DNA of 39,755 bases from Opitutaceae bacterium (lineage in GTDB: Bacteria > Verrucomicrobiota > Verrucomicrobiia > Opitutales > Opitutaceae): NCBI GenBank assembly GCA_018667915.1, contig JABIRI010000170.1, positions 1 through 39,755 of the forward strand, read 5' to 3'. The notes beneath the pieces were generated by a model. That model was not told where the DNA came from. It saw only the letters and a list, made by a program, of their open reading frames with translations, and did not search any database. The position numbers were made by a program, and so were the translations under genes. Within the stretch, counting starts at the first letter, position 1; the number at the start of each line of letters is the position of its first letter. Positions 228 through 38,956 of the stretch are shown here, in pieces.

Positions 228-1199
228 ATGAACACCGAATCATCAGCAGCTTCCGTCGTTGCAAACGGATCTGCCCCTCAACTCAAAATCATTGGCGAAC
301 TCATCAACAACGCCTACGGCCGCGCTCGGCGCGCTTGGGAGGCCCGTGATGTAACCGGATTCCAGCACCTCGCCAAACTGCAAGACGATGCCGGAGCTGA
401 ATTCGTAAACCTCAATATCGACGGCACCCAAAAAGTGTCGGTGCGGGTCGAAGAAATGCTCGAATTCCTCCCCACCCTCATTCCCGCCGTGCAAGAGGTC
501 ACCGACGTTTCTCTGAGTTTCGACAATCCCAATATAGCCTACCACCGCGTCGCCCTCGAAGCCTTCGATCGCAGTAAGAGCCGAGGCAAACCGCTCTTCA
601 ATTCCCTTGCCGCTTCTCGCGAAGATCTCGACGACATGATCGCGATGATTGGGGAGCATGACATGCGTTGTATCGTCATGGCCTCCGAATGCTTCCGGCC
701 CGACGGCAGCACCGGCCAAAGCCTCGATCCCCAACAGAGCTACGAGGCCGTCAAACGCTTCGTCGATCTGTTGGTGACCAAGGCAAACCGCACCGTCGAC
801 GACATCATCGTCGATCCCGGTCTCGCTCCCGTCGGCGCCGACACCTATGGACTGGTCAACATCGGTCTGGACACTCTACGCCTGTGCTCCTCCGATCCCG
901 ACCTCAAAGGCCTGCACTATTCCGTCGGACTATCAAATTTCGCCTGGGGCACACCCAAGGCCGTAAAACCTCTACTTGAGCGCGCCTACCTCACCATCGC
1001 CGGCCGCCTCGGGCTCGACTACGCGCTCGCCAACGTCGAAGCCAATGCCACGCCACTCGAATCGGATCATCCGATAATCGCTGAACTGGAAGCGGCTCTC
1101 GAATACGGCCGGACCCAAGACGGTGAGACCGCGGAAGACGCCGGCTTCCGTCAGGCCGAGAAGATCATGGATCTTTGCGCCGACTACATCGACGAATGA
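228..1199 (+). CDS. pterin-binding methyltransferase (methyltetrahydrofolate:corrinoid type)
   Basis: A 323-residue protein of the pterin-binding (dihydropteroate synthase-like TIM barrel) family, as in AcsE, MtgB and the MetH folate domain. These move a methyl group between tetrahydrofolate and a corrinoid protein in the cytoplasm. Seen in the sequence: an N-terminal IIGELINN segment, equivalent to the usual IGERIN start of the barrel; a GAEFVNLNIDG strand near residue 57; SFDNPN, PLFNSLA and IIVDPGLAP strands; and a late YSVGLSNFAWG segment. The length suits a stand-alone enzyme. It is the first gene of a packed operon and its stop overlaps the next start as ATGA. No corrinoid-binding protein or substrate-specific methyltransferase is beside it, so direction and donor are unknown. 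The family call is firm; the exact substrate is not. Confidence 0.85.
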   Translation: MNTESSAASVVANGSAPQLKIIGELINNAYGRARRAWEARDVTGFQHLAKLQDDAGAEFVNLNIDGTQKVSVRVEEMLEFLPTLIPAVQEVTDVSLSFDNPNIAYHRVALEAFDRSKSRGKPLFNSLAASREDLDDMIAMIGEHDMRCIVMASECFRPDGSTGQSLDPQQSYEAVKRFVDLLVTKANRTVDDIIVDPGLAPVGADTYGLVNIGLDTLRLCSSDPDLKGLHYSVGLSNFAWGTPKAVKPLLERAYLTIAGRLGLDYALANVEANATPLESDHPIIAELEAALEYGRTQDGETAEDAGFRQAEKIMDLCADYIDE

Positions 1200-19845: not shown

Positions 19846-19881
19846 TTCAGCTACCCGGCCCTCCCCTTCCACTTCTGAAAC

Positions 19882-21627: not shown

Positions 21628-21630
21628 GCG

Positions 21631-25071: not shown

Positions 25072-25224
25072 GGACAAAAGGGAAGACCACCCTTGGCGGC
25101 AAAGGTGCCCTCGCCAAGGCCACATTTAACATCTTCCCCCCGAATTCCCCCTCTTTCTCCTTCCTTCTCTACCCTCGAACTCAATCTCACTGTCACTTAG
25201 CATATGACAGTGGCGCGCGCGAGG
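25072..25224. other. intergenic gap between cyclophilin and Ig genes
   Basis: A 153-base gap within the co-directional minus-strand run, pyrimidine/purine-biased (CCCCCTCTTTCTCCTTCCTT) with a CACTTAGCATATGACAGTGG palindrome-like piece near 25193-25212 that could be a hairpin (CACTGTCA...TGACAGTG). It may separate two transcripts. Confidence 0.45.
25193..25212. terminator. possible hairpin downstream of the Ig gene at 25225
   Basis: CACTGTCACTTAGCATATGACAGTG (about 25188-25212) has eight-base inverted arms CACTGTCA and TGACAGTG around a nine-base loop, 12 bases after the stop codon of the 25225 gene on the minus strand. No T-run follows in that direction, so it may be a stabilising hairpin or an operator rather than a terminator. 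Confidence 0.45.
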
Positions 25225-27126
25225 CTAGTCGTTACTGAGCACTTCGTAAGCTTCGACGAGGATCACCCCGGTGCCATCATTCGCTCCTGTAGGTCTCACC
25301 GTGTAGGCTCCGGGTGGTAATCTCACCAAAACCGCTGCGTCCAGCGAGGCATCGTCGGCGAAGGAAAATGCTCCCGTGGTCTGATAGGCCTCTTTCAACT
25401 CGGTCGTGCCTCCCCAGTTGTCGTTGCGCGCGATCGTAAAATTCTGTCCTCCCGGAATCACTTCAAGCTGAGGATCCGCCATGGTTCCCGGCACGCCGAA
25501 TCCAGCCAAGGTTGGCCCCACGACGCGAATCAACATCGTTTTGGCCCCGTCTCCATCGATCACGAACCCGGGAGCCAATACCTCAGCCCCCAAGCCACTG
25601 AATCCTCGGGCGGATATATTGGTAAGCCGAGCGGCGTCCATTGACGCTCCGTCCGGGTCATAAATTTCCGCAAGCGCGATTCCGGCGGCGCCGCTAGTCG
25701 AGGTAATCTGGACCGTAAACCCCTTACTGCCAGCGCTGTTGGGCAGAGATACCGAACTGAGCACTGCGGCATCACGTGAGTCTGCATCCAGTGGAAACGC
25801 TCCCAGCCCTCCGCTCGTTGTCGCAAGCTGCGATGCGTTAGTCGCGTCCTCCCAGTTGTCGTTGGTCAACATCGGGGTAGTTCCACCCAGGGGAACTAAC
25901 GCCAAGGTCGGATCAGCCATTGCGGTGCTTACCCCAAAGTCAGCCAACTCCGGCCCCACCGCACGGATCACGAGATCTTTCGCCCCATCACCACGCAGGA
26001 CAAATCCCGGTGTCAGCTCGCCGCCGGCCGGCACACTGCCCCGAGTCGACAAATTAGCCAAACGACTCGTGCCGCCCTTTACCGTTACTACCACAACATC
26101 GGACTCAATCGTTTCATCCGCACTGGCGATTCGAACGTAATAGAACCCCATGTCCGAAGCCGTGACTTGCGGCAGGTTAAGGGTCGGCGAAGTCTGCCCA
26201 CTCAGAATGCGAAGTCCTTCTCCGGATTGAAAACGAAACCACTGATAGCTTAGCGGCGTAGACGCGGAAGCAACGACCGAGAGTATTCCCGGGGAGTTGG
26301 GGCCAACGTCGATTGAAACCGGCGCAGAGATGATCGAAATTGCGGTGTCCGCGATGGTCAACGTGGCCACGTTACTCGTTATACTGCCCAACGAATTATT
26401 GACTACGACCGTGTAGTCTCCGGCATCGCTTGAGCTGACCGCGGGGATTACGAAGCTGGCCTCAGTGGCTCCAGCGATCTCAACGCCATCCTTGCGCCAT
26501 TGAAACGCAGGAACCGGATTTCCCTCGGCCGTAACCGAAAACGTGACCGACGCTCCCTCCGAAATCGAACGCGACGTGGGGTGGCCCGATATGACCGGCG
26601 CGGCATCCACCGCTTCCGCCACGACAATGGTATAGTCGAACTGCAGGTCCCCTCCATCCAAAGTCTTATTGATCCCCCGCCAGGCCCGTGCCTGCAGGGT
26701 GTATTCACCCGCTTGCGTGGGCGTCCCCAAAATCGACACCGACACTCCGTTAACGGTATCTCCCACTAAGTCTAAAACGCTCAGGCCGGGTGGAATTTGC
26801 CCAGTTATTTCATACGATCGAGCGGTCGCGGGAGCTCCGGTTATGGCAAACCCTCCCCCAAATGGAACTCCCACCGTGGCCCTCGCGGGCAACCCGGCGG
26901 GGCCAGGATCCAATCTCGTCGGAGTGGCTCCGGTCTGGGCATGCACCGTTTCTGACAACATCACCGCGCTTCCCGCCAGCACGCCTTTGAGCACACTCCC
27001 CAATCCTGACGTCACCACAAACTCTGTGGTAATTGCGGTCCGCAAAAGCGGCGCGCGCTGCAAAAGAACCGTCAACAGAACGACCGGCAGCTGAAAGCGG
27101 CGCAAATGGTGATAAGGCGAAGTCAC
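25225..27126 (-). CDS. exported Ig-domain protein, paralogue C
   Basis: A 633-residue exported protein, third of three tandem paralogues. I choose the GTG at 27126 (TSPYHHLRRFQLPVVLL) because it lies 13 bases past the preceding stop and makes the N-terminus and domain spacing equal to the paralogue at 28802; an ATG at 27168 is an alternative overlapping the preceding gene. Order: a hydrophobic LPVVLLTVLLQRAPLLR segment, a second hydrophobic segment ending VHAQ, a putative-Ig (He_PIG-like) domain with LGTPTQAGEYTL, an I-set Ig domain (ISGHPTSRSISEGASVTF to NVATLTI), a further Ig-like domain (YQWFRF to DMGFYYV), and the double C-terminal module from residue 351. A surface or T2SS-exported role is inferred. 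Confidence 0.82.
   Translation of the reverse strand: MTSPYHHLRRFQLPVVLLTVLLQRAPLLRTAITTEFVVTSGLGSVLKGVLAGSAVMLSETVHAQTGATPTRLDPGPAGLPARATVGVPFGGGFAITGAPATARSYEITGQIPPGLSVLDLVGDTVNGVSVSILGTPTQAGEYTLQARAWRGINKTLDGGDLQFDYTIVVAEAVDAAPVISGHPTSRSISEGASVTFSVTAEGNPVPAFQWRKDGVEIAGATEASFVIPAVSSSDAGDYTVVVNNSLGSITSNVATLTIADTAISIISAPVSIDVGPNSPGILSVVASASTPLSYQWFRFQSGEGLRILSGQTSPTLNLPQVTASDMGFYYVRIASADETIESDVVVVTVKGGTSRLANLSTRGSVPAGGELTPGFVLRGDGAKDLVIRAVGPELADFGVSTAMADPTLALVPLGGTTPMLTNDNWEDATNASQLATTSGGLGAFPLDADSRDAAVLSSVSLPNSAGSKGFTVQITSTSGAAGIALAEIYDPDGASMDAARLTNISARGFSGLGAEVLAPGFVIDGDGAKTMLIRVVGPTLAGFGVPGTMADPQLEVIPGGQNFTIARNDNWGGTTELKEAYQTTGAFSFADDASLDAAVLVRLPPGAYTVRPTGANDGTGVILVEAYEVLSND
25228..26076 (-). 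repeat. C-terminal double module, Ig paralogue C
   Basis: Two tandem units, SRLANLSTRGSVPAGGELTP to YDPDG and LTNISARGFSGLGAEVLAP to VEAYEVL. Unit one has NDNWEDA; unit two has NDNWGG and LPPGAYTVRP. Confidence 0.82.
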
Positions 27127-27139
27127 GGTATCGCCAGAG

Positions 27140-28774
27140 TTACTGTTCCAGAACCTCGTAAGCCTCAACCAATATCACTCCCGTGCCGGCGTTGGCGCCC
27201 GCGGGTCGCACGGTATAGGCACCGGGTGGCAATCGCACGACAACCGCCGCGTCCAGAGAGGTGTCATCATCAAATGCAAAGGCTCCCGTGGTTTGGAACG
27301 CCGTCTTCAACGCGGGGGTGCCGCCCCAGTTATCGTTGCTGGCAATAACAAACGTTTGTCCGCCCGGAATTACCTCAAGACGTGGATCGATCATCGTGTC
27401 CGGCACGCCAAAACCGTCCAACGTCGGCCCGACCACCCGGATCAACATCGTCTTCGCGCCGTCTCCCTCAATCACAAATCCCGGCGCGAGAACGTCGGCA
27501 CCTAACCCGCTGAAACCCCGCGCCGAGATATTAGTGAGCTGAGCCGAACCGCCGCCTACGTCGGGATCATAAACTTCGGCGAGAGCAATTCCTGCCCTGT
27601 CACTGGTAGACGTGATCTGAACAGTGAACCCCTTGGATCCGGCTGCGTTCGGTAACGAAACCGAATTCAAAACGGCGGCGTCGCGTGATCCACTATCGAG
27701 CGGAAACGCCCCGAGGGTAGCGCTGATCATAGCGAGCTGCGACGCATTCGCCGCATCTTCCCAATTGTCGTTGGTGAGCGACGGTGTGGTGCCACCCAGA
27801 GGAACGAGAGCAAGCGCGGGATCGGCCATTGCGGTCGACACTCCGAAGTCCGCTAATTCGGGGCCGACTGCGCGAATGACGAGTTCCTTATTCCCGTCTC
27901 CCCGCAGCACAAATCCAGGTGTAAGTTCGCCGCCCGCCGGCACACTGCCCCGCGTCGAAAGATTCGCCAGGCGGCTCGACCCTCCCGCGAGGGTCAAGAT
28001 CGCAGCGGACGAATCGATGGACTCGTCACCACTTGTCACGCGGGAAAAATAGAACCCCATATCCGAAGCCGCCACGTTACTCACTGTTAGCGTCGCGGTC
28101 GTTTCGCCCACCAATGCCTGCGGACCCGGCTCACCCGATCGGTGCCGAAACCATTGGTAGGTCACAGCTTCATCAGAGGTAGCTTCAGCGGTAAAAATCG
28201 CCGTGGAGCCAACCACGGTTTCGATCGATTCTGGAGAGCGCGCGAGTTGCAGATTCACCGTCGAGGCCGGCTCAATCTCGATGTTGAAATCAAAGACGGT
28301 GTTACCGCCTTCGCCCTGGAGATTTGGCATATTCCATCCCGCGATAAATACGGTGAAGGTTCCAGATTCGGTCGGCGTTCCGGTGATCGGAACAGCAACT
28401 CCGTTGAAAATGGTATTATTGAGTCCTTCGACCACCAAACCTGCCGGTAGAGTTCCCGTGACTTGATAAGACGCGGCGGCGACCGGAGCACCGATAATCG
28501 CAATAGCCGCTTGAAAAGGCTCGCCGACTACACCTCGCCCGGGGTTGCCAACCTGACCAGGGGCCGGGCTCAAAGTAGTCGCACCGGCTTGGGCATGGAC
28601 TTCACTCATCGACATCGCGCCGACCAGCACCCCTTGCAGAATACTCACCGTGCGAACCGACGCGACCGACTCCCACGCGACGGCCGCGCGCAACATCGGA
28701 AACCGTTGCAACACCACCACGAGCAACGCGGCCGGAACATGGAGCCACCGCCAGCGTTGATAAAGTTCGCTCAC
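27140..28774 (-). CDS. exported Ig-domain protein, paralogue B (short)
   Basis: A 544-residue paralogue lacking the I-set Ig domain present in its two neighbours. N-terminus: RWRWLHVPAALLVVVLQRFPMLRA (two pieces of the shared segment), then a second hydrophobic stretch ending EVHAQAG with a plausible signal peptidase site. Next come a He_PIG-like domain (residues 88-168, with ITGTPTESGTFTV), one Ig-like domain (175-262, YQWFRH to SDMGFYFSRV) and the double module from residue 264. It starts 27 bases after the preceding paralogue's stop, so the three genes are likely cotranscribed. Internal domain loss or gain between tandem copies is the simplest explanation of its size. Confidence 0.82.
   Translation of the reverse strand: MSELYQRWRWLHVPAALLVVVLQRFPMLRAAVAWESVASVRTVSILQGVLVGAMSMSEVHAQAGATTLSPAPGQVGNPGRGVVGEPFQAAIAIIGAPVAAASYQVTGTLPAGLVVEGLNNTIFNGVAVPITGTPTESGTFTVFIAGWNMPNLQGEGGNTVFDFNIEIEPASTVNLQLARSPESIETVVGSTAIFTAEATSDEAVTYQWFRHRSGEPGPQALVGETTATLTVSNVAASDMGFYFSRVTSGDESIDSSAAILTLAGGSSRLANLSTRGSVPAGGELTPGFVLRGDGNKELVIRAVGPELADFGVSTAMADPALALVPLGGTTPSLTNDNWEDAANASQLAMISATLGAFPLDSGSRDAAVLNSVSLPNAAGSKGFTVQITSTSDRAGIALAEVYDPDVGGGSAQLTNISARGFSGLGADVLAPGFVIEGDGAKTMLIRVVGPTLDGFGVPDTMIDPRLEVIPGGQTFVIASNDNWGGTPALKTAFQTTGAFAFDDDTSLDAAVVVRLPPGAYTVRPAGANAGTGVILVEAYEVLEQ
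27143..27985 (-). repeat. C-terminal double module, Ig paralogue B
   Basis: Same two units as in the neighbouring paralogues, with SRLANLSTRGSVPAGG, LTNDNWEDAANAS, then LTNISARGFSGLGAD, SNDNWGG and LPPGAYTVRP. Very similar to the module of paralogue C. Confidence 0.82.
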
Positions 28775-28801: not shown

Positions 28802-30694
28802 TTACTCCGGGACCTCATAGGCTTCGACGAGGATTACACCGGTGCCATCGTTGGCCCCGGAAGGCCGCACGGTATAGGGTCCCGGAGGAAGGCGAACGAC
28901 CACGGCCGCATCTCGTGATCCGTCATCCGTAAATTCGAACGCACCGGTAGTCTGGAAGGCGGTTTTCAAAGCGGTGGTTCCGCCCCAATCATCATTCTCT
29001 GCGACCACGAAGGGCTGTCCTCCTGGAATAACTTCAAGACGCGGATTCGTCATTGTGCCCGGCACCCCGAAATCAGCCAGACGAGGTCCCACCACGCGGA
29101 TCAACATCGTCTTGGCTCCGTCACCATCGATCACAAATCCGGGTGACAATGCTTCGGCACCGAGACCACTGAACCCACGAGCGGAAATATTGGTGAGCTG
29201 AGCGGCAGTTCCGGCGGCATCCGGATCGTAAACCTCGGCAAGCGCGATACCGGCCGTTCCCGAGGTTGACGTGATTTGAACCGTAAATCCCTTGCTGCCG
29301 GCTGAATTTGGTAGCGAAACCGAAGTAAGCACACTCGCATCCAGCGACCCAGCGTTCAAAGGGAATGCTCCCAAGCTCGCGCTCTTGGTCGCGAGCTCGG
29401 CGGAGTTGGCTGAGTCTTGCCAGTTGTCATTGGTAAGTTGCGCGGCCGAGCCGCCCAACGGCACCAAACTCAACGTCGGGTCATCCATGGCCGTCGTGAC
29501 GCCAAAGTCGGCCAACTCGGGCCCGACCGCCCGAATCACCAGATCCTTCGACCCATCGCCGCGCAGCACAAAACCGGGAGTAAGCTCCCCTCCGGCGGGA
29601 ACACTGCCGCGGGTTGACAAGTTGGCCAGTCGGCTCGTGCCTCCCTGTAAAGTGAGAATCGCGTAATCGGAATCAACACTCGTTGAGCCACTCGAAACCC
29701 GCACAAAATAGAACCCCATGTCCGAAGCTGCCACGGGACGGATCACCAGAGAATCGGTGGTCGCTCCCGCAATCGGGCTTTGGCCATCACCGTTTTTATA
29801 ACGGAACCACTGGTAAGTAAGACTTCCGCTGCCGGTCGCACTTACTGACATCGCCGCGGTTCCACCGGCGATGGCATCTATCGACGCGGGTTGAGTGGAA
29901 ACCATCACGGCGGCCGGGGCCGTAACCGTCAAAGTCGCGGCTGCGCTGGTGGCACTTCCCGCGCTGTTGGTTATGACCACTGTGTAGTCGCCGGCATCTG
30001 AAGGAGAAACCGAAGTGATGGTGAGCGTGGAGCTCGTGGCTCCGTTGATGGCGACACCATCTTTGCGCCACTGAAATGTCGGTTCGGGATCGGCCGTGCC
30101 GTCGAGTTCAAACGTAGCCGTCCCGCCCTCGGGCACCGAAATCGAGTCAGGTTGATCGGTAATCATGGGCGCGGTTCCAGCCGCTGCTTCGACATTGATT
30201 ACATAATTGAATGTTGGGGTGCCGCCTTGCCCCGTCTTATTCGCTGCTTTCCAAGCCCGAATCATCATCGTGAATTCACCTGATTCCGTTGGAGTTCCCG
30301 AGATCGTCAGCGTGGCGCCATTCACCGTGTCACCACTCAGATTCGCGAAACTTAACCCCGCCGGAATACTGCCCGTGACCTCATAGGACGCGGCGTTAGC
30401 CGGAGCACCGGTAACCGCAATTGCGGCCGCGAAAGCTTGCCCGACGGTCGCACTGGCCGGATTGCCGGTTGACCCGGCGTTGAGTTCCGTCGCACCCGCG
30501 ACGGTTTGAACGGTGCCGAGAGCTGCACTCCCCACGAGCACCCCCTTCAGCACGCTGCTTACGCCAGAGCTGACGACAAATTCAGTAGTAACGACCGCCC
30601 GCAGCATAGGCAGGCGTTGCAACAGCACCATCAGGACAGCGGCAGGGAGATGAAGCCAACGGAAGCGGAAATAAACGGTAGCAAACGTATTCAT
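28802..30694 (-). CDS. exported Ig-domain protein, paralogue A
   Basis: A 630-residue exported protein. Hydrophobic segment one (residues 14-27, LHLPAAVLMVLLQR) is followed by PMLRA and a second hydrophobic region (40-66). Domains: He_PIG-like (85-168, with ISGTPTESGEFTMMIRAW), I-set Ig (176-258, ITDQPDSISVPEGG to AAATLTV), Ig-like (264-349, YQWFRYKNGDG to DMGFYFVRV), module A (351-490) and module B (498-628). No LPxTG or PEP-CTERM anchor is visible at the C-terminus. It begins 27 bases after the DUF4266 lipoprotein stop on the same strand, so it may be read with the flavinylation operon. Confidence 0.83.
   Translation of the reverse strand: MNTFATVYFRFRWLHLPAAVLMVLLQRLPMLRAVVTTEFVVSSGVSSVLKGVLVGSAALGTVQTVAGATELNAGSTGNPASATVGQAFAAAIAVTGAPANAASYEVTGSIPAGLSFANLSGDTVNGATLTISGTPTESGEFTMMIRAWKAANKTGQGGTPTFNYVINVEAAAGTAPMITDQPDSISVPEGGTATFELDGTADPEPTFQWRKDGVAINGATSSTLTITSVSPSDAGDYTVVITNSAGSATSAAATLTVTAPAAVMVSTQPASIDAIAGGTAAMSVSATGSGSLTYQWFRYKNGDGQSPIAGATTDSLVIRPVAASDMGFYFVRVSSGSTSVDSDYAILTLQGGTSRLANLSTRGSVPAGGELTPGFVLRGDGSKDLVIRAVGPELADFGVTTAMDDPTLSLVPLGGSAAQLTNDNWQDSANSAELATKSASLGAFPLNAGSLDASVLTSVSLPNSAGSKGFTVQITSTSGTAGIALAEVYDPDAAGTAAQLTNISARGFSGLGAEALSPGFVIDGDGAKTMLIRVVGPRLADFGVPGTMTNPRLEVIPGGQPFVVAENDDWGGTTALKTAFQTTGAFEFTDDGSRDAAVVVRLPPGPYTVRPSGANDGTGVILVEAYEVPE
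28805..29644 (-). repeat. C-terminal double module, Ig paralogue A
   Basis: Two tandem units: SRLANLSTRGSVPAGG, VIRAVGPELADFGV, NDNWQD, then LTNISARGFSGLGAE, LIRVVGPRLADFGV, ENDDWGG and LPPGPYTVRP. The units share the GP-L--FGV and NDxW positions with each other. Confidence 0.82.
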
Positions 30695-30721: not shown

Positions 30722-30946
30722 TTAATTGCAGCCGCAGCCTGAAGCCCCGACTCCACGACCGCCCGAAGACGCTTCGCGAGAAAAGTAAATATGCTCAGAC
30801 ATCGCGTCGTGCATCGCATCGCGGTCGGCCCGCATCGTGTAATCCGCGAGTAGGCCTTTTTCCCACGGCTGCACATTTTGGCAGCCGCTAAAAACAAGTG
30901 CGACCGCGGCGAGAAAAAGAAGAAGGAAGCGTTGGCGTTTGATCAT
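30722..30946 (-). CDS. DUF4266-type small lipoprotein
   Basis: A 74-residue lipoprotein with a hydrophobic leader ending LVFSGC, so C22 is the lipidated residue. The mature part begins CQNVQPWEKGLLADYTM and ends SREASSGGRGVGASGCGCN, the Cys/Gly tail I associate with DUF4266. The start overlaps the TlpA stop as ATGA. DUF4266 genes occur beside DUF3570, ApbE and thioredoxin genes, as here. The two C-terminal Cys may be the substrate of the neighbouring TlpA or bind a metal; this is inference. Confidence 0.85.
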   Translation of the reverse strand: MIKRQRFLLLFLAAVALVFSGCQNVQPWEKGLLADYTMRADRDAMHDAMSEHIYFSREASSGGRGVGASGCGCN

Positions 30947-31446
30947 GGGGATTCAGCGAGCAGAGGTTCAATTTCGGAGCGCAACAGCTCCACGGTGCGA
31001 TCGCCGCGATAGCCTTTGTGGACTTTACGCAGTTTGCCATCGCGGCCAAAAATAAAACTGGTGGGCATGGCCGGCGGCTTGAGTGTCGCCGCGAGTTTTT
31101 GGGAAACGTCGCGAACCGTCGAAAACCCGGGAGGCGTCTGTTTAAGGAAGCGCGCGTAGTCCTTGGATTTTTTATCCACACTTATTCCCAAAATCACAAA
31201 GCCTTGATCTGCCCACTCCTGCTGCAGTTTCGCGTAGGCCGGAAATGAAGCCTTACACGGTGCGCACCACGACGCCCACACATCGACCATCACCACTTTG
31301 CCTTCAAGGTCGGGAACCTTTCCCTCCAATTCGAAATCGCCCCACTTCGGCAGGGTGTCTCCAGGTTCGAGCGCAAGGGCCAAACCAGCGGTTAGGATCC
31401 CGAGCAGGACCACCGACCCGACATTTCTAAATTTAACTGACCACAT
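30943..31446 (-). CDS. TlpA-like thioredoxin-fold protein
   Basis: A 167-residue exported thiol-disulfide protein. The start at 31446 gives an N-terminal hydrophobic segment (residues 8-26) ending LALA; a longer frame upstream lies inside apbE. The redox motif WASWCAPCK has C61 and C64, the cis-Pro loop is AMPTSFIF, and ISVDKKSKDYARFL is typical of TlpA/ResA proteins. It overlaps the apbE end by 14 bases and the DUF4266 start by four, so the four genes are translationally coupled. It likely reduces or protects Cys of exported partners, with the DUF4266 CGC tail an obvious candidate. Confidence 0.88.
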   Translation of the reverse strand: MWSVKFRNVGSVVLLGILTAGLALALEPGDTLPKWGDFELEGKVPDLEGKVVMVDVWASWCAPCKASFPAYAKLQQEWADQGFVILGISVDKKSKDYARFLKQTPPGFSTVRDVSQKLAATLKPPAMPTSFIFGRDGKLRKVHKGYRGDRTVELLRSEIEPLLAESP

Positions 31447-32428
31447 AATGAAAGAATCCTCGGGTTTGGTGTTTGGCACCGGCTGAGACCATGCAGCCTT
31501 CAGCGACGGGCGTGGATTGAATAAACTCGAGACCGTTTTCCGGTCCCAGGACAAATGCAGCCGTAGCCAGCATACCCGCCTGTAAGCACGACGGCGCCAC
31601 CACGGTGACCTGTTGCAGGCCATTGGTTGTGGGGCGACCGGTCCGAGGATCGATGATGTGACCATAGCGCTGGCCATCGATCACGAAGCCACGTTGATAG
31701 TTTCCCGAGCTGGCAACGGACGTATTCACTGCCCCGATACTTCCCCAAAGCTTCCCCGTATCGCCGGGATCTTCTAAGCCGATGTGCCACGCGGGGCGAC
31801 CCGGCGGTGTGCCGGCCACCCGGATATCATGACCGAAATCAACGAGCACGTTTTCAATACCGTGCTCTCCTGCCATCTGCACCGCCATATCGACGGCAAA
31901 TTCTTTGCCCCATCCTCCAAAATCAAGCGACATTCCGACGCGGGGTAAACGCACGCGCCCGGGTTCACGCTCGACTTTAGACCATCCTACCAACTCACGG
32001 GCGCTCCCGACTTCGTCTTCGGTCGGGATGCGCGGATGTTCGATATGGTAATCCCAGAGCTTGGCCAGCGGGCCCGCCGTTACATCGACGATACCTTGAG
32101 TCATGAAGTGCACCGTGCCGCACATCTCGAGCATGCGATCCATCTCCTCATCGATCGCCAGCCACTCGCCATTGCCAGCGGCCAAATTAATCTGACCCAC
32201 GATGCTGTCATCACGAAAGCGGGTGTAGCGCGCTTCGTAATTCTGCACCCATGCAATCACGGCTGGCTCGAAGCGGGCCGCAACGGTCGCATCAGCGGCA
32301 AACTGAATCAAACAACGCGTGCCCATGGCGTGAAATTCGATCCGACGCAGGGGTTCCGCATCGGTCGCCGTGGACTTGCCCGAATCCGCACGCTGGTTCG
32401 CGGCGTGAGTTGTCTGGATCAGAGCCAT
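31433..32428 (-). CDS. apbE: FAD:protein FMN transferase (ApbE family)
   Basis: A 331-residue flavin transferase that links FMN from FAD to a Thr or Ser of a target protein. Family motifs are present: HAMGTRC near residue 33, YTRFRDDSIVGQIN, DVTAGPLAKLWDY, MSLDFGGWGKEFAVD (residues 167-180), VLVDFGHDIRVAG, SVASSGNYQRGFVIDG and HIIDPRTGRP (257-266). The N-terminus has no hydrophobic signal, and the in-frame sequence upstream reaches a stop without one, although the other three products of the operon are exported. It overlaps the end of the DUF3570 gene by ten bases. Confidence 0.93.
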   Translation of the reverse strand: MALIQTTHAANQRADSGKSTATDAEPLRRIEFHAMGTRCLIQFAADATVAARFEPAVIAWVQNYEARYTRFRDDSIVGQINLAAGNGEWLAIDEEMDRMLEMCGTVHFMTQGIVDVTAGPLAKLWDYHIEHPRIPTEDEVGSARELVGWSKVEREPGRVRLPRVGMSLDFGGWGKEFAVDMAVQMAGEHGIENVLVDFGHDIRVAGTPPGRPAWHIGLEDPGDTGKLWGSIGAVNTSVASSGNYQRGFVIDGQRYGHIIDPRTGRPTTNGLQQVTVVAPSCLQAGMLATAAFVLGPENGLEFIQSTPVAEGCMVSAGAKHQTRGFFHYVVS

Positions 32429-33597
32429 AAACGAATTCCGAGGGTGAAGACGTTGGCGTCGACGTAGGCACTCGGCGAAGTGACTTGATCTCTACCATTC
32501 ATTAAATACCGCTCAACGGTGGCATCCACCGAGACGTGCTCATTGACTTCCCAAACTGCTTTGAGCCCGAGCATCCATGTCTCCATATTGGAGAGTCTGT
32601 AGTCTCCCGAATAATAGGGAAATCGGCCCGTGGCCTCGGCCGGCGGGACAATGGGCGAAGCATCAAGATCGACCGCGTAGAAGTCCGCGGCTGATTGCCG
32701 ATAGTAGCGCACCGCGGGACGAAGGATGAATTTCTCGCCGAAGCGTTGATACCACGCGAATTCCAAGGTTTGGCTGCTCAGTCCCCAATCGTCATCGAGT
32801 AACCGGATCGACGACTCGATAGCGGCGTTAAGCGGTTCGATGGCATGGTTGACGCTAAAAAACCCGATCAGCTTCTGCTTCGAAGAAGGCCGATTCTCGG
32901 GAAATGTCAGATCGAGTGAAAGGCCCGGTAGAATCTCCGTTTCCTTTTCGATGATCTTGTAGGGATCGGACAAATATCCACTTTGTTTACCGTAGGTCAG
33001 ATTGGCGGTGATCGAAGTCCGGGGCGATAGGACTTGAGTGATTCCGATGATCGCATCTTGGACCTTTTTATCGCGAGGCCGGCTCAGGAACGCCGCCGTC
33101 ACATCGTCGTTGGCCTCGGCATATCCCATCAAAAGCGTAGTGTCCTTCTGGTTGAAAAACAGTTGGCTGTTTAAGGACCATACATCGGAAAGATAATCGC
33201 TCTCCTTACTGTTGCCGTAGCCCAGCGTAATCGATGCGCGCTCCCACGGGTGGGTGTATTCCACCTGATAAGCTTCGCGACGGTCCTTGAGTTGGGAAAG
33301 AGGAACCTGATCACTGCCTGCCGGCGCGGGCTGCCCGGACGGAGTCGCGCCCGTAATCGTATCGATCAAGCCGACCAAACGCAGTTTGTCGCCCGTCGCC
33401 CAGGTGTGTTCAGCCTCCGCGTAGTGCGCATCGACCCGGATCCGATCGTCATCCTCCTGCCACGTCTGGAACTTGTAATGAAGCGTCGACTCGGCTCGAG
33501 CATCCTTCTGCGGTGACGACATCCAAAGCACGATTGCCCAGAGAGCAATTCGGCCGTGGCGGGGCAGGCGTAATGAGACGCGAGAAGTCAGAGACAT
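32419..33597 (-). CDS. DUF3570-type outer-membrane protein with a flavinylation-like motif
   Basis: A 392-residue exported protein. The start at 33597 gives a signal peptide (SRVSLRLPRHGRIALWAIVL, cleavage after ARA near residue 35); an earlier ATG at 33654 is less likely. The rest is alternating strand-like sequence rich in aromatic and charged residues and ends VFTLGIRLWL, as outer-membrane barrels do. Residues 79-85 read DTITGAT (33343-33363), matching the D-x-x-S/T-G-A-T motif at which ApbE attaches FMN in NqrB, NqrC and RnfG; T85 would be the acceptor. Gene order DUF3570-ApbE-TlpA-DUF4266 with overlaps supports one system. DUF3570 assignment is by context and general look; flavinylation is a prediction. 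Confidence 0.82.
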   Translation of the reverse strand: MSLTSRVSLRLPRHGRIALWAIVLWMSSPQKDARAESTLHYKFQTWQEDDDRIRVDAHYAEAEHTWATGDKLRLVGLIDTITGATPSGQPAPAGSDQVPLSQLKDRREAYQVEYTHPWERASITLGYGNSKESDYLSDVWSLNSQLFFNQKDTTLLMGYAEANDDVTAAFLSRPRDKKVQDAIIGITQVLSPRTSITANLTYGKQSGYLSDPYKIIEKETEILPGLSLDLTFPENRPSSKQKLIGFFSVNHAIEPLNAAIESSIRLLDDDWGLSSQTLEFAWYQRFGEKFILRPAVRYYRQSAADFYAVDLDASPIVPPAEATGRFPYYSGDYRLSNMETWMLGLKAVWEVNEHVSVDATVERYLMNGRDQVTSPSAYVDANVFTLGIRLWL

Positions 33598-33734: not shown

Positions 33735-34268
33735 TCAGGGGGCTTCCGTGATTTCGACCGAGGAGACGGTCAAATTGGCGTTCAATTCCGCCGGATTATT
33801 CCGCACCGAACCCAGCGTAAATCGCTCGATGCCGATGTAAGGGGCGCGTTGCGAAAGCTCCTCATAAAACGCCAACAGGCTCGTCCACTCCACTCGATTG
33901 AGTGTCACCACAACCGTATTAAATGAAAATTGAGCAGTCGTCTCCGTCGGCTGAATCTCACTGCGGAGGTTTTGATCAATGCCAGCATTCTTCGCCAGCG
34001 TGCTGAGCTCGGCCGACAGTCGAAGACTGTTAAATGTCAGGGAACTGTCCAGATTTGCGACCGCCGCGGCAGCCTCAGCTTCGATGCGATCTTTCGCTGC
34101 GAGCCATTGCGCCTGCGTTTTTAAAACTGCACGTGTTTCCTGCACTTCCCTTACCACCAAACGAACACGTTCGGAGAGATCGGAAATCCACAACACAGCG
34201 GCGGCCCCGGCGAAGAGGAGCAAAAGAAGTTTCTCGCGAGCGATTCTGCTAATGAACCAAGCCTTCAT
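33735..34268 (-). CDS. gspM: GspM/PilO-like type II secretion protein
   Basis: A 177-residue bitopic protein: a short cytoplasmic N-terminus, one membrane helix (residues about 13-30, KLLLLLFAGAAAVLWISD), a coiled-coil-like region (LSERVRLVVREVQETRAVLK) and a small ferredoxin-like periplasmic domain. This matches GspM in layout; sequence identity alone would not prove it. The start overlaps the gspL stop as ATGA. It ends the pseudopilin-assembly operon, 138 bases before the DUF3570 start. Confidence 0.7.
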   Translation of the reverse strand: MKAWFISRIAREKLLLLLFAGAAAVLWISDLSERVRLVVREVQETRAVLKTQAQWLAAKDRIEAEAAAAVANLDSSLTFNSLRLSAELSTLAKNAGIDQNLRSEIQPTETTAQFSFNTVVVTLNRVEWTSLLAFYEELSQRAPYIGIERFTLGSVRNNPAELNANLTVSSVEITEAP

Positions 34269-35434
34269 TCGGTTTCCTCCGTTTCAGGTGCTATTTCCGC
34301 GTCGGTATCAAAGGCACCTAAACTAAAGCGCACCAGCAATCGCATGGTTGAGATCGAACCGCGCGTATCGAGATTCATAATTTCTACGCCCTCAGTCGCA
34401 TCCAAGTCGGTGAGATCCGAAACATAAACATTCACGGCCTGCGCATCATTGGTCTCCGCTTCAATTTCCAAAGAATAGAGACCCGTTGCAGCCGTCCTCA
34501 GGAAGATGATCGAATCCGGTTTGAGACTAGCAACAATATCGATCATCTCGAAGGGACGCAGACGTTTGGTGCGCAATTCTTCAATGCGGTTGGCCAATCG
34601 ATCCGCCGTTTCGATCTCGTTCACAATCGGCGTCTGCACCTGCACCTGTTCATTCAAGGCAGTCTGGTAAAAGCTCGTGCCCCATAACGAAAGTTCGGCG
34701 ATGCCCGCGAGCAGTATGGCCACCAATGCAGCCACCAATCCGCGCCATAACCATGAGTCGCGCACCCGAGTTCGGCGACGAGCGACGAGTTCGGTATGAT
34801 CTCTCACATCCAAAGATTGAGCATCATCGAGCGAGACGCGTTCTTCTTCCCCTCCCCGACTGATGATCAATTCATCCGTTCCGGCTTCGCCCGCTTTAAC
34901 GGTAGCGACCTTCAAATCGCGCACCGAAGTGCTGCCGCCGCATTCGCGGATAAGTTGCTCGCGAATCTTATCGATATCCGATTCCGATGCTTCCGGCTCG
35001 ACGGTCGCAGCGCGGACCAATGTCGGCACGCCAGAGGCATCACCAAAATGCACCGCGGTGATAGATTCTTCTCCGGCCAATATAAACGTCGTGGCCGGTG
35101 CCGGCGCGGATTCGACCAACAACGTGCTCAGCGCGGGAGTCACCCACTCGGCATCCGCCCAGTCTTCCACCTCTTCCGCGGTGAAACGTTTTTGGTAAGT
35201 CGCAAATACCAGCGCGTGATCGCCGCCCGGCTTGGCCCAATACCCCCACAAGGTTTGGTTCAACGGAAACGGAGCCATGCCTTCTAGGGCGAGCTCCACC
35301 TGATCCGCGACCGGTCCTGCCTCCGCTTCATCCGCCAACGCGACCGACCGCATGAAAAATCGATGATCCGGCAAGATCATGACTTCGCGCGTGCGGGTCT
35401 GGAGAACCGGAAGCTTTAAGGAGAGTTTTGACAT
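34265..35434 (-). CDS. gspL: GspL-like type II secretion protein
   Basis: A 389-residue protein with a large N-terminal cytoplasmic part (1-228) of the GspL/PilM-like kind, a membrane helix (about 230-251, LWRGLVAALVAILLAGIAEL) and a PilN-like periplasmic part (residues 255-375) with a helix followed by SLKPDSIIFLRTAATG. It should couple GspE to the pseudopilus through GspM. The cytoplasmic part is diverged. Its ATG shares one base with the gspK stop (TAATG), and it overlaps gspM. Confidence 0.72.
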   Translation of the reverse strand: MSKLSLKLPVLQTRTREVMILPDHRFFMRSVALADEAEAGPVADQVELALEGMAPFPLNQTLWGYWAKPGGDHALVFATYQKRFTAEEVEDWADAEWVTPALSTLLVESAPAPATTFILAGEESITAVHFGDASGVPTLVRAATVEPEASESDIDKIREQLIRECGGSTSVRDLKVATVKAGEAGTDELIISRGGEEERVSLDDAQSLDVRDHTELVARRRTRVRDSWLWRGLVAALVAILLAGIAELSLWGTSFYQTALNEQVQVQTPIVNEIETADRLANRIEELRTKRLRPFEMIDIVASLKPDSIIFLRTAATGLYSLEIEAETNDAQAVNVYVSDLTDLDATEGVEIMNLDTRGSISTMRLLVRFSLGAFDTDAEIAPETEETE

Positions 35435-36624
35435 TATTCAGTATCGAAAGCCTGGGTCAGGCGGGCAATGTGGTCTGCAGCATCCATCTCTTGGATCGAG
35501 AGCAGTGTAAAGGGATACTCGATGGAATCCGGCAGATCGTCTTCTCCCCCGGGCCCGGCAATCGCCATGGCAGCGGCGGCAATAATAGGGTTGCGAGTGG
35601 CGGACTCGGTCTCGGCCTGCCCATTGAGCGATTCACGTTCGGGTATCGGTTCGGTCGCATTGGGGGCTGCGCCGCCCGGCGGTGCAATGACCACGCTCAA
35701 CACGTAGGACGCGGCGCCTTGAGTCACCTCCACGGTGATTCGAAGCGCCTGAATCTCCGTGCCAAACCCCTCTATGACCGCCTGATCGCCCAGCACCGTC
35801 GCAACTTCGCCCGCATCCGTAAAATATCCCGGTCCCTGACTGCGATAGACCCCACCTCCGCCCAAATAATCACGCAGCAACTCCTGCTGGTTTTCGTCGT
35901 AGCGACCCAAGGCGGCCAGCGCACCATTCGAAGCGGCATTGATGTTGGGCGTGCTGTATTTGAGCAATGTCACCGACTCCTGCATGCGCTGATAATATTC
36001 ATTGGGGCGGCCGGTTTCATCGAAAAATTCATCCCGGATGAGATCGATAGCTCGAAGCTCCTCCCACGAATGAGGCGCTCGACCCGGGGGAGCGAAACCA
36101 AGAGGATCACGTTCATAATCCTCCAAGCGCGGCGCATCAAAAGTTGAGGCGACGTATTCTTCCTGGGACCAGCCCATCAAAGCATCTGCCCATTTCTCCG
36201 CATCAAACTCGCGCACGCCCCACGATTCAAACAGCACCACCCACATTTGAAAATCCAACGAACTGAACGGAATTCGGCCACTTTCATCTACAAACGTCAC
36301 CTTAACTTCCCGGCCTTCTTCAGGTTCGTAGTCCCCCCACTCCAACGGCTCAGCCCAGCCTTCGGCGGGACTGTGCAACCCCCCGATCACTTCGCGAAAG
36401 TCCACCAGCACCGCCAGGGTCGTTTCGAGCGCGGAGTAGGCCTCCTGTCGCAACCGAATCCGATCGCTATCGCGCACGTGGACGATCAGGTCCGTGCTCG
36501 CTTTCTCGATAAACAGCAACAGCGCCAGGGTGGTGAAAAGTAATGTCACCAATACAATCACCAACACCGTCCCCCGCTCGCGGCGGGGATCAAATCGGTT
36601 GGCACTGTGGTCGGTCGGTCTCAT
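35434..36624 (-). CDS. gspK: type II secretion minor pseudopilin GspK
   Basis: A 396-residue minor pseudopilin placed at the pseudopilus tip. The start at 36624 lies one base after the gspJ stop; an ATG at 36651 is possible but overlaps. The prepilin site is RRERG before TVLVIVLVTLLFTTLALLLF, lacking Glu at +5 as is normal for GspK. The big insert typical of GspK follows, with EEGREVKVTFVDESGRIPFSSLD and the helical SAM-like LLRDYLGGGGVYRSQGPGYF region. Confidence 0.88.
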   Translation of the reverse strand: MRPTDHSANRFDPRRERGTVLVIVLVTLLFTTLALLLFIEKASTDLIVHVRDSDRIRLRQEAYSALETTLAVLVDFREVIGGLHSPAEGWAEPLEWGDYEPEEGREVKVTFVDESGRIPFSSLDFQMWVVLFESWGVREFDAEKWADALMGWSQEEYVASTFDAPRLEDYERDPLGFAPPGRAPHSWEELRAIDLIRDEFFDETGRPNEYYQRMQESVTLLKYSTPNINAASNGALAALGRYDENQQELLRDYLGGGGVYRSQGPGYFTDAGEVATVLGDQAVIEGFGTEIQALRITVEVTQGAASYVLSVVIAPPGGAAPNATEPIPERESLNGQAETESATRNPIIAAAAMAIAGPGGEDDLPDSIEYPFTLLSIQEMDAADHIARLTQAFDTE

Positions 36625-36625
36625 C

Positions 36626-37285
36626 TTAAAACGGCGGCAAACCTTCACCAAAAATTGTCAGAGGCACGATGGTCTGAATCTCTTCATCCTTATAGTTGAA
36701 GGTCAGTCGAATCCGCCCCGGTGTCTCGAGCTCGCCATCATCGCCGGTGCGTAGTCGTTCCTCCACTTCCCAGCGCCCAAAATCGGCATCAAAATACTCG
36801 TAACCCAAACTCCCCACCAGCGGTGAAAGCACCATCTCCCGCGGCGGATCCGTATTAAATTCTTCCTCCAACGCCGACTGCCAATACAGCACCAAACCCT
36901 CTCCCCGTTTCACTTCGAGCGCTGCCCAGACATCCGGCAAAGGACGCTCCGGCCACTGAAGAATACGGCTCCCCTCGCGGAGGCCAAATACCAGCAAATC
37001 CTCTCTCCGACCAAAATCAACTTCGACCTCACGCGCTTCCGCCGCCGCCACGTCTCGGGCTACTCGCGGAGGTAAGGCGGCTTCTCGAAACTCGGCTTCT
37101 AGAAAACGGGTCAACGCCCGTGCATGTTGATCAAACAGGCGATAATCACGGCCGCGCCCCCACAGTTCCGACATGGAGAAAACAAATGTATTCAGGCCGA
37201 TCATCACGCCCGCGATCAATACCATCGCCACGATCAGTTCGAGCATCGTGAACCCACGCTGAGACTGCTTGCCGCGCCGCTTCAT
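36626..37285 (-). CDS. gspJ: type II secretion minor pseudopilin GspJ
   Basis: A 219-residue prepilin-like protein. The leader MKRRGKQSQRG is followed by FTMLELIVAMVLIAGVMIGL, with Gly at -1 and Glu at +5. The body has YRLFDQHARALTRFLEAEFR, typical of GspJ (DxxxLxRxL), and late RIRLTFNYKDEE. The start overlaps the gspI stop as ATGA. Confidence 0.88.
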   Translation of the reverse strand: MKRRGKQSQRGFTMLELIVAMVLIAGVMIGLNTFVFSMSELWGRGRDYRLFDQHARALTRFLEAEFREAALPPRVARDVAAAEAREVEVDFGRREDLLVFGLREGSRILQWPERPLPDVWAALEVKRGEGLVLYWQSALEEEFNTDPPREMVLSPLVGSLGYEYFDADFGRWEVEERLRTGDDGELETPGRIRLTFNYKDEEIQTIVPLTIFGEGLPPF

Positions 37286-37740
37286 CGGTTACCCCGCACT
37301 CCTTCCAAATACTGCGTAATATTATCGCGAGCTTCCAGTCGGAGTTTGTCACGATCATCGTCTTCCGACCAAGTCGGGCGCAGCAGTCGAAACCGCTCCG
37401 TAATCACCTCACCTTTCCCGGTATTCCCATCGAGCAACTCGACTTCGAATTCCACCTCAAATAAATCGGCCACCAAGGTCGGTTCGACAATTGCCCGCCA
37501 GATGACGCGACGTCCATCGGCGGTTTCAAATTCGTCGCCATCTTCGACTTCCTCCAAGTCGGGTTGACGAAAAAGGATCTCCCGCGCGAACCGCACATCC
37601 GCGTCTATTTTGGTGGCACGCTCAGCATGGGCATAGCCCAATAACACATTCACGTAGGCCGCACCCATGACAATCGCGGCCATCGCAAAAATCGCCAGCG
37701 CGGCCAAAACTTCAATGATCGTAAACGCCCGGAGTCGCAT
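37282..37740 (-). CDS. gspI: type II secretion minor pseudopilin GspI
   Basis: A 152-residue pseudopilin. The start at 37740 is one base after the gspH stop and gives a very short leader MRLRA before FTIIEVLAALAIFAMAAIVM; a longer frame from 37794 would overlap gspH. The residue before the cleavage site is Ala instead of the usual Gly, while Glu at +5 is kept. The T2SS GspI pattern (IEVLAALAI) and size fit. Confidence 0.85.
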   Translation of the reverse strand: MRLRAFTIIEVLAALAIFAMAAIVMGAAYVNVLLGYAHAERATKIDADVRFAREILFRQPDLEEVEDGDEFETADGRRVIWRAIVEPTLVADLFEVEFEVELLDGNTGKGEVITERFRLLRPTWSEDDDRDKLRLEARDNITQYLEGVRGNR

Positions 37741-37741
37741 A

Positions 37742-38278
37742 TCAGAACCGCCGCTCCTCATTGCGCAAAATGGGTGCACACGTCCACGGATCAATCTCCA
37801 ATATCAAGGGTTCTTTACCCTCTTCCTCCAGTCGGGCCCGAAAGGGTGAACACGTGCCGTCGCGAAAAAATTTCACCGCGGTGAGTAGGTTTACTTCGGT
37901 CAATCTCCCGCCAATCAGGATCGTTTGTTCGCCCTTGGTTAGGCCCAGGAATTCCAGGGAAAAGGGCTCACCCGATGGCAGCGGCACTTCGCGTGTGCCC
38001 AAATCGGTCGCCGCGACAAAAACCTGTTCCTCGTTGTCGAACGAGAGCGTCAAATCGACCTCGTATTCCAGCGCAAATTTACGCGCCTCGTTCACCGCAT
38101 ACCAAAACATATCTTCCGGCGTATCCTTCCGATCCGCCAACAAACTGGAAGCGCCCACCGCTAAGACGGTGGCCAAGGCCCCCATCAGCGCGATCACGAC
38201 GATAATTTCGATCAATGTGAAGCCGGCACCGCCCGAACGACGCCCAGATTTCGGCATAAAACGGCGGCGAAAGTTCAT
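37742..38278 (-). CDS. gspH: type II secretion minor pseudopilin GspH
   Basis: A 178-residue pseudopilin: leader with SGGAG before FTLIEIIVVIALMGALATVL, Gly at -1 and Glu at +5. The globular part has NEARKFALEYEVDLTLSFD, matching the GspH/FimT family (ARxxA region). The second Met (38257, MPKSGRRSGGAG) gives a more usual leader length and may be the real start. It begins 21 bases after gspG. Confidence 0.85.
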   Translation of the reverse strand: MNFRRRFMPKSGRRSGGAGFTLIEIIVVIALMGALATVLAVGASSLLADRKDTPEDMFWYAVNEARKFALEYEVDLTLSFDNEEQVFVAATDLGTREVPLPSGEPFSLEFLGLTKGEQTILIGGRLTEVNLLTAVKFFRDGTCSPFRARLEEEGKEPLILEIDPWTCAPILRNEERRF

Positions 38279-38299
38279 GAGACCGCCTGCAGTTGCAGC

Positions 38300-38731
38300 T
38301 TACCAATTACCGATGTCGTCATCGGTGCCCGCTGTCTGATCGCGGCCTTTGGAAAACAGATCGTAAGTGGTTTTGTTTTTCGTGCCCGGAAAACGATATT
38401 CGTAAGGCTGCTGCCACGGATCCATCGGTAGTTTTTCGATATACGGCCCCTTCCAATTCTTAACGCCCTGAGGTTCCGCAATCAAAGCCTCCAACCCTTG
38501 TGCTGTGGTCGGATTGGATCCCGTATCGAGCCGGAAAGCCAAAATCGGAGAACTCATGGTGGATTTCACAAAGAGACCGGCCGTCTGTTCCTGGCCGCGA
38601 TCGAGATCGCCCCCTACATTGCGCACCAAAACCGCCACCAAAAGACCTAGGATCGCGAGCACGACCATGATTTCGAGCAAGGTGAAGCCACGATTTCGAG
38701 AGCGGGCGGACGAAGAAACAGGTAAAATCAT
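38300..38731 (-). CDS. gspG: type II secretion major pseudopilin GspG
   Basis: A 143-residue major pseudopilin. The start at 38731 is chosen so that the leader ends SRNRG before FTLLEIMVVLAILGLLVAVL; upstream Met codons only lengthen the leader. The C-terminal half shows the GspG signature: NPTTAQGLEALI, YIEKLPMDPWQQPYEYRFPG and FSKGRDQTAGTDDDIGNW, where the late acidic loop binds calcium in known GspG. First gene of the minus-strand gspGHIJKLM operon. Confidence 0.95.
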   Translation of the reverse strand: MILPVSSSARSRNRGFTLLEIMVVLAILGLLVAVLVRNVGGDLDRGQEQTAGLFVKSTMSSPILAFRLDTGSNPTTAQGLEALIAEPQGVKNWKGPYIEKLPMDPWQQPYEYRFPGTKNKTTYDLFSKGRDQTAGTDDDIGNW

Positions 38732-38956
38732 AACAGTAGCGAATAAGACCGCTCCCCAACGGATGTCGAGAAAGCGTGTGGCGTTAAAAATGAGACGTCT
38801 GCGCCGCCCACAAGTTTCACTAAAAAACAGGAGCCGGGAACAAACTTGCGGCGCCTCGGCCGCCAAGTGAAGTTTGGCCACGTAGAAAGAGCCCCACCCA
38901 TTCATAGTTTTCCGGCGAAAACAAAAGCCCCCTCGCCCGGAGTTCATCTCCCAACC
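38732..38956. promoter_or_regulatory. divergent gspG / orphan-gene intergenic region
   Basis: The 225 bases between outward-facing genes must hold the promoter of the long gsp run. No clear -35/-10 pair or operator was recognised; a GC-rich CCACAAG/GCGGCGCC stretch lies in the middle. Confidence 0.35.

Follow-up and report, generated by a model that had tools for sequence, protein, structure and literature searches.

The system nearest to the one analyzed here was described for Chlorobium luteolum, whose DUF3570 protein becomes flavinylated upon co-expression with its ApbE in Escherichia coli; according to the text available of that report (PMC8238504, Meheust 2021), the modification is lost only when the serines of both of its [S/T]GA[S/T] motifs are replaced by alanine, and denaturing conditions were used to obtain the protein from the cell pellet. 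The same text reports clusters of ApbE, DUF3570, thioredoxin and DUF4266 genes, with 227 DUF3570 clusters containing DsbD and 316 four-gene clusters lacking it. Among bacteria and archaea, the majority of ApbEs seem to be secreted, while the Klebsiella ApbE, which modifies a soluble fumarate reductase, and those of trypanosomatids are cytosolic (PMC12052999, in its accessible part). In this work we analyzed a stretch of 39,755 nucleotides from an Opitutaceae bacterium (contig JABIRI010000170.1), referred to here as the window, in which a gene encoding a DUF3570 protein is followed by apbE. The locus belongs to the DUF3570 flavin system already known, with a single, well-supported flavinylation site on an outer-membrane barrel.

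The first-pass annotation of this DNA had suggested a covalently flavinylated outer-membrane barrel, as an unusual device for electron transfer or sensing, and had pointed to surveys linking ApbE to DUF3570/DUF4266 clusters, with no target that could be cited. Such clusters are described for C. luteolum's system, and the missing target had already been demonstrated there (PMC8238504, as far as its text was available). The idea of a flavinylated DUF3570 protein is therefore not new, and its novelty as an ApbE target was ruled out. The site itself stands, and two features modify the picture: the ApbE encoded next door has no recognizable signal peptide and carries Gly in place of an Asp of its catalytic triad, and a similar site recurs in secreted, leader-bearing proteins encoded nearby. 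Three elements go beyond the print that we found: a 16-strand barrel model that places the acceptor T85, a clade of altered ApbEs without signal peptides, and a family of secreted proteins with a common leader. In a literature search that mostly covered sources outside subscription journals and bioRxiv, DUF3570 and DUF4266 were mentioned in PMC8238504 only, and none of these three elements was described among the matches listed (titles and beginnings of abstracts). The words barrel and cytosolic ApbE were not found in the main text of PMC8238504, in the form available.

The core of the locus consists of four genes in head-to-tail order with overlaps of 10, 14 and 4 bases, so that, as first noted, the DUF3570 gene comes directly before apbE:

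32419..33597, minus strand: DUF3570 protein gene, 392 amino acids (PF12094, 217.2 bits, cut-off 25)
33343..33363, minus strand: flavinylation motif DTITGAT, residues 79-85, with the codon of the acceptor T85 at 33343-33345
31433..32428, minus strand: apbE of the signal-peptide-less subfamily (PF02424, 242.7 bits, cut-off 25.6)
30943..31446, minus strand: TlpA/ResA-like exported thioredoxin (PF00578/PF13905), CAPC at 31255-31266
30722..30946, minus strand: DUF4266 lipoprotein, lipobox Cys22, C-terminal GCGCN (PF14086, 74 bits)

The start of the thioredoxin was set by us at MWSV, the listed open reading frame (ORF) starting at 31677, and an in-frame ATG upstream of the DUF3570 gene offers an alternative start at 33654.

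The window DUF3570 protein carries a Sec-like signal peptide, extending to about A35, and the motif D79-T-I-T-G-A-T85 (read from 33363 to 33343) is present only once. To describe its conservation we aligned 82 DUF3570 proteins of Verrucomicrobiota (the window protein, the top match at each of the loci L081-L160, and one more copy from L130), of which 81 have the site, one being truncated before it. The consensus was D-x-I-[S/T/A/V]-G-A-[T/S]-P-x-G. The acceptor is Thr in 75 and Ser in 6 of the 81 proteins, preceded by Ala in 80 and Ser in one at position -1 and by an invariant Gly at -2; position -6 is Asp in 79 and Asn in 2, and the Pro at +1 and the Gly at +3 are invariant. Position -3 is the variable one, with Ser in 39, Ala in 21, Thr in 19 and Val in 2, and hence Ala or Val in 23 of the 81. 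The match of the window protein to the motif is thus not due to chance, although the expectation that this would be the most conserved block of the family failed: in a wider set of 50 proteins S130, E132, D134, S137, D164, G207, R265, R297, Q301 and D332 are invariant, whereas the Gly at -2 is kept in 46. Ser or Thr ends the motif in all 50; in families beyond that of the window, Asn may replace Asp and G-S may replace G-A, with one case of G-M, and the proteins of L055-L058 show DYVSSAS or DYVSCAS at this place.

The fetched DUF3570 loci overlap, their 134 entries amounting to 125 proteins distinct by the last 300 residues. Loop 2 is long (61-166 residues) in 14 of the 121 site-bearing proteins and has 15-36 residues in the remainder. 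Eleven of the 14 long-loop relatives have an additional GA[TS] in this loop (L032-L035, L053, L063, L073, L074, L076, L077 and L080), within an insert that is often acidic and rich in Pro and Ser. The loci L055-L058 represent a second type of DUF3570 protein, in which the DYVSSAS or DYVSCAS motif is followed by SGAS within a short loop 2; their ApbE is canonical and exported, and their DUF4266 ends in GCGC plus Tyr or Phe. The Hymenobacter locus L227 was grouped with them: its DUF3570 protein shows an SSAS motif, and its ApbE, encoded in two frames that overlap, has a start that looks signal-like by eye.

The barrel-like C-terminus proposed at first inspection was borne out by modeling. An AlphaFold2 model of the mature DUF3570 protein, built with 72 relatives, reached a mean predicted local distance difference test (pLDDT) of 96.6 and a predicted template modeling (TM) score of 0.89, and by our count contains 16 membrane strands plus one loop hairpin. 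The model aligned end to end with the barrel of BamA (residues 1..355 against 423..810; Z 22.4, 274 residues, root-mean-square deviation 3.2), and also with those of PelB (Z 21.0), PDB 4y25 (20.2) and BcsC (18.4). A Foldseek search returned several barrels, with query TM-scores from 0.23 to 0.59 among the 50 rows shown; this ranking shows a barrel and does not single out a closest relative, and the search for a solved relative by sequence gave a lone match with an E-value of 0.42. Outer-membrane barrels have both termini in the periplasm. Applied to the model, this rule implies that strand 3 runs outward and that T85, at its end, would be on the extracellular side. Hydropathy parity assigns D79, I81, G83 and T85 to the lumen, and 33 of the 44 highly conserved strand residues face the lumen versus 11 facing the lipid, with strand 7 undecided. 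The window DUF3570 protein was accordingly placed as a signal-peptide-bearing 16-strand outer-membrane barrel with T85 predicted at the extracellular end of strand 3, on the lumen side.

The ApbE encoded downstream belongs to an unusual type. The catalytic triad of the V. cholerae enzyme is Ser241-His257-Asp285 (PMC12052999, accessible part). When it was mapped onto the window ApbE by spacing and by alignments to solved ApbEs, the residue numbers coincided: S241 and H257 are retained, Gly285 occupies the place of the Asp (codon 31574-31576), and Lys-Glu176 replaces Lys-Gly (Glu codon 31901-31903). The protein scores 116 bits against the NCBIfam ApbE equivalog, whose cut-off is 498. None of 110 non-identical ApbEs from DUF3570 loci deviates at the triad Ser or His, while the Asp-to-Gly and the Lys-Gly-to-Lys-Glu changes are each found in 106; the four exceptions, which keep the Asp, are those of L055-L058. 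In contrast, the canonical pair is present in all of 39 ApbEs from as many DUF3570-negative genomes of the phylum, a control set drawn from a score-sorted list and including one from G299, which has DUF4266 and no DUF3570 match. In a tree of 115 ApbEs (a set non-redundant at 75% plus a Vibrio sequence, which was long-branched) the altered type fell on one side of a single branch, with support of 100/99 and in 200 of 200 bootstrap trees.

The altered ApbEs also differ in their predicted location. With a hydropathy test over in-frame ATG, GTG and TTG starts, a signal-like segment was found in 106 of 131 DUF3570 proteins (a count reduced by L069, L081 and L139, which are broken or cut by contig ends), 98 of 109 thioredoxins, 117 of 119 DUF4266 proteins and 38 of the 39 control ApbEs, and in only 6 of 116 linked ApbEs: those of L055-L058, that of L094 through an upstream non-ATG start, and that of L132 through a stretch inside the domain. 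By the same test the window ApbE has neither a signal peptide nor a lipobox. The thioredoxins of L135, L143 and L145 carry a twin-arginine-like signal (PRRRFLR), with a low hydropathy score.

This type of ApbE follows the DUF3570 system across genomes. In 383 Verrucomicrobiota genomes, DUF3570 and DUF4266 were each found in 47, 46 of them in common; ApbE as a whole is present in 297, including all 47 DUF3570-positive ones, whereas a close ApbE of the altered type occurs in 43 of these 47 and in none of the 336 DUF3570-negative genomes. The line for close members (214 bits) was drawn after seeing a gap between 214.9 and 166.8 bits, and two distant ApbEs of the altered type lie below it among canonical ones (G282:C51, 166.8 bits; G358:C24, 127.6 bits), so that these counts are valid for the close clade only. 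The four positive genomes without a close member are G059, G120 and G213, with a canonical, exported ApbE, and G179, with a weak DUF3570 fragment of 27.8 bits. Of 80 named DUF3570 loci 67 contain apbE, and for clusters devoid of it an ApbE of the altered type was found elsewhere in 12 of 13 genomes and not in the thirteenth, G388; these genomes account for 12 of the 13 apbE-less loci (L104 through genome G282; L127, at a contig end, was left out) plus G340. In G384 the system is divided, DUF3570 and DUF4266 being at one locus and apbE and the thioredoxin at another. The type is not limited to Verrucomicrobiota, since the ApbE of the Vibrio record L226 belongs to it. The order of genes in that record, which has no annotation over the stretch and whose genes were called with our own profiles and confirmed by Pfam, is thioredoxin, DUF4266, DUF3570, ApbE and DsbD.

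The tail of DUF4266 is nearly fixed, mostly as GGRGVGG[GS]GCGCN at the C-terminus, with GCGCN invariant in 47 aligned proteins. In E. coli, a residue other than Asp after the lipid-bearing Cys means sorting to the outer membrane; none of 67 DUF4266 proteins with a recognized lipobox has Asp there, which by this rule points to the outer membrane. Folded alone, DUF4266 gave no confident fold, tail included (pLDDT 58). These features would be compatible with a flexible, dithiol-bearing arm beneath the barrel.

The linkage, motif conservation, barrel fold, predicted topology, lack of a signal-like segment, altered ApbE residues and co-occurrence computed here can be joined in one mechanism, to which we give a probability of about one half. 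The ApbE would move flavin mononucleotide (FMN) from flavin adenine dinucleotide onto T85 of DUF3570. As this ApbE lacks an export signal, the transfer would most likely take place inside the cell, while the precursor is still unfolded; Sec would then export the precursor and Bam would fold it into the 16-strand barrel, leaving FMN on the lumen-facing side, close to the extracellular opening. There it would probably serve as the outer station of a thiol-to-flavin path, with electrons passing from the cytoplasmic thiol pool to DsbD, the TlpA-like thioredoxin, the CxC tail of DUF4266, FMN and finally an acceptor outside; in the clade of the window, the leader-bearing secreted proteins may be among such acceptors. 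In support of the thiol side, DsbD is part of published clusters (PMC8238504, available text) and of the Vibrio operon, and the source genome has one DsbD-family match.

Several points weigh against this mechanism. For the window clade the support is computational, the demonstrated flavinylation coming from the C. luteolum relative, and the activity of an ApbE that lacks an Asp held to be both catalytic and metal-binding is not assured. The ApbE signal-peptide call derives from a crude hydropathy score and not from SignalP. In the barrel model, the direction of the strands was taken from the usual rule and lumen facing from residue parity, which was undecided for strand 7 and, for strand 3, drew in part on the Asp of the motif itself. 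DsbD is outside the operon, the single DsbD-family match of the source genome lying on another contig, and a single flavin cannot span the membrane alone. Furthermore, as L055-L058 have an exported canonical ApbE, modification in the cytoplasm would not be general to the DUF3570 family.

Downstream of DUF4266 the window contains three genes for secreted proteins with a common leader, here called GAT leader after the motif at its end:

28802..30694, minus strand: GAT-leader secreted protein 1, Ig-like body, QTVAGAT at 30488-30508
27140..28774, minus strand: GAT-leader secreted protein 2, weak match to Ig models, HAQAGAT at 28577-28597
25225..27168, minus strand: GAT-leader secreted protein 3, Ig-like body, HAQTGAT at 26923-26943

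The leader, of about 65 residues, contains LLQRxPxLR, followed about 40 residues later by a hydrophobic segment that closes with the motif [HDNQ]xx[SATV]GA[TS]. It was found as 94 distinct sequences in 104 genes at 87 of 131 loci, including the window, a weak leader of L141 (20 bits) having been dropped before counting. The leader genes usually follow DUF4266, and 81 of the 113 DUF4266 loci that extend 600 bases or more past this gene contain one. Position -6 is His in 59, Asp in 23, Asn in 8 and Gln in 4 of the 94; -3 is Ala in 56, Ser in 28, Thr in 7 and Val in 3; -2 is Gly in 90 and Ala in 4; -1 is Ala in 93 and Ser in one; and the putative acceptor is Thr in 87 and Ser in 7. In 2249 other ORFs, totalling 795,644 residues, the pattern [DHNQ]..[SATV]GA[ST] occurs 20 times. 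A profile built from the leaders at DUF3570 loci matched 27 of the 383 genomes, all of them among the 47 DUF3570-positive ones and none among the 336 negative; in the window's own family it matched all 19 positives and none of the 19 negatives. Leader and system thus go together, only in part of the range of the latter, as 20 of the 47 positive genomes have no leader, and a leader gene is present at 82 of 107 short-loop loci versus 0 of 14 long-loop ones. The leader as such has no named family in Pfam or NCBIfam. The remainder of the proteins matches Ig-like and similar repeat domains, except in 2 of 10, which have no Pfam match.

The resemblance to the DUF3570 motif makes the leader proteins candidates for further ApbE targets, with a serious rival. 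The leader might equally be an extended signal peptide cut at [AST]-G-A by signal peptidase I and left unmodified, an explanation whose chances we rate only slightly below even. The residues at -3 and the Ala at -1 (93 of 94) fit such a site, and the residues after it are variable. This enzyme, however, does not require the Thr or Ser acceptor and the His, Asp, Asn or Gln at -6, both found in 94 of 94 leaders, nor the Gly at -2, and the leaders were found in DUF3570-positive genomes only. Covariation between positions -3 of DUF3570 and of the leader seemed strong at first (31/26/0/29; Fisher p 5.6e-8) and was lost when phylogeny was considered: the leader residue remained unchanged with the DUF3570 residue in nine of nine independent contrasts on the DUF3570 tree, which agrees with the cleavage explanation, although all nine fall in an Ala-leader background. 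We do not count this covariation as evidence. Because [AST]-G-A is also a signal peptidase I site and the covariation test failed with phylogeny, the leader Thr should be taken as a putative acceptor. A broader proposal, in which a cytoplasmic ApbE with a rebuilt metal site (Asp to Gly, Lys-Gly to Lys-Glu) would flavinylate the barrel and the whole leader-marked, multidomain secreted family before export, the barrel, the thiol chain and the FMN-bearing surface proteins jointly creating a haem-free counterpart of the porin-cytochrome conduit, seems to us less likely than not.

It could also be argued that the linked ApbE is no longer an FMN transferase and works as a chaperone binding the motif, or as a transferase of another group, T85 being unmodified or otherwise modified. 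The residue changes that separate it from the controls speak for this, since the lost Asp belongs to the triad with Ser241 and His257 (PMC12052999, accessible part) and, from the Asp-x3-Thr spacing, we map it to Asp280 of the E. coli enzyme, which binds metal 1 together with Thr284 (PMC4767422, accessible part). Nevertheless, the triad Ser and His, the metal-site Thr and the Lys are kept in 110 of 110 linked ApbEs and GGxG nearly so, DUF3570 retains its Ser or Thr acceptor, and the new Glu could substitute for the Asp, so that we consider a loss of transferase activity improbable.

Somewhat less probable still is that the ApbE enters the periplasm by a route that needs no recognizable signal peptide and modifies the barrel in that compartment, as happens in NQR and RNF systems. 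The apparent secretion of most ApbEs (PMC12052999, accessible part) and the exported ApbEs of four distant DUF3570 loci would agree with it; against it, 110 of 116 linked ApbEs show no signal-like segment, the earliest in-frame ATG, GTG or TTG start in the window is the ATG at 32428, and the Klebsiella and trypanosomatid enzymes provide cytosolic precedents (same source). For an ApbE subfamily that lacks a signal peptide and has Gly for Asp, modification would more probably precede export, inside the cell, than occur in the periplasm, and the enzyme should not be taken as active without question. Lastly, that the DUF3570 motif is an unmodified strand-to-loop element is the least probable explanation, since its position at the end of strand 3, the invariant Pro and Gly and the frequent Ala or Val in place of its first Ser or Thr are outweighed by the acceptor in 81 of 81 proteins, the close linkage to ApbE and the flavinylation of a relative (PMC8238504, available text).

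Other features of the window and its genome complete the description. The leader genes are followed by a cyclophilin-type peptidyl-prolyl isomerase gene with Ig-like sequence and no match to the leader profile (23044-25125, minus strand). Type II secretion system (T2SS) genes lie on both sides: at 17632-22908 (plus strand) those of the secretin, GspE and GspF, and at 33735-38947 (minus strand), directly upstream of DUF3570, GspG, three genes with N-terminal methylation motifs and, assigned by position only, the K, L and M genes. Homologues of the K/L/M genes are present in 22-23 of 130 DUF3570 loci (GspM/L homologues in 23, many of them short); we read the T2SS genes as neighborhood and not as mechanism. 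The source genome (4.28 Mb in 361 contigs) contains one DUF3570, one DUF4266, one FMN_bind and one DsbD-family protein and two ApbE matches, the second being partial (C305:5305-5865, L162) within a 594-residue frame with the canonical Lys-Gly. The closest named relative of the window DUF3570 protein, at 74%, is from an uncultured Opitutaceae bacterium. Viral contigs gave no match; plasmid matches were three Vibrio records and one from Hymenobacter, and a plasmid search with the window ApbE returned 567 records, the 15 listed having 29 to 34% identity.

The clade of altered ApbEs, which is probably cytoplasmic, and the leader family that co-occurs with it are the parts that merit further study. 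As a rule, proteins outside the cytosol receive their covalent flavins in the periplasm; the passage of FMN-loaded polypeptides through Sec and Bam would, if true, change where and how such cofactors are loaded, and would give the Opitutaceae a testable haem-free electron route across the outer membrane. An ApbE without the triad Asp lets an essential part of ApbE chemistry be tested directly, and the leader family, if modified, would make flavoproteins predictable from sequence alone.

In summary, the window shares with the C. luteolum system the clustering of DUF3570, ApbE, a thioredoxin-like protein and a CxC-ended DUF4266, as well as the [S/T]GA[S/T] acceptor, and differs from it in having one motif and not two, with a first Ser or Thr that is not required across relatives, in the leader-bearing proteins downstream, and possibly in its ApbE, which has no signal peptide and carries Gly for Asp. 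With the periplasmic ApbEs that act on NqrB, NqrC and RnfG, where FMN is bound by a phosphoester, it has in common the D-x-x-[S/T]-G-A-[S/T] acceptor, whereas its substrate is a predicted outer-membrane barrel and its ApbE lacks the export signal and the triad Asp. The Klebsiella ApbE likewise has no signal peptide, but its substrate is soluble inside the cell, whereas that of the window has a signal peptide and a predicted outer-membrane end. Finally, the porin-cytochrome conduit MtrCAB consists of an outer-membrane barrel with redox partners on both sides; the window system might resemble it in this arrangement, as an analogy with no homology claimed, with flavin and thiols in place of haem.

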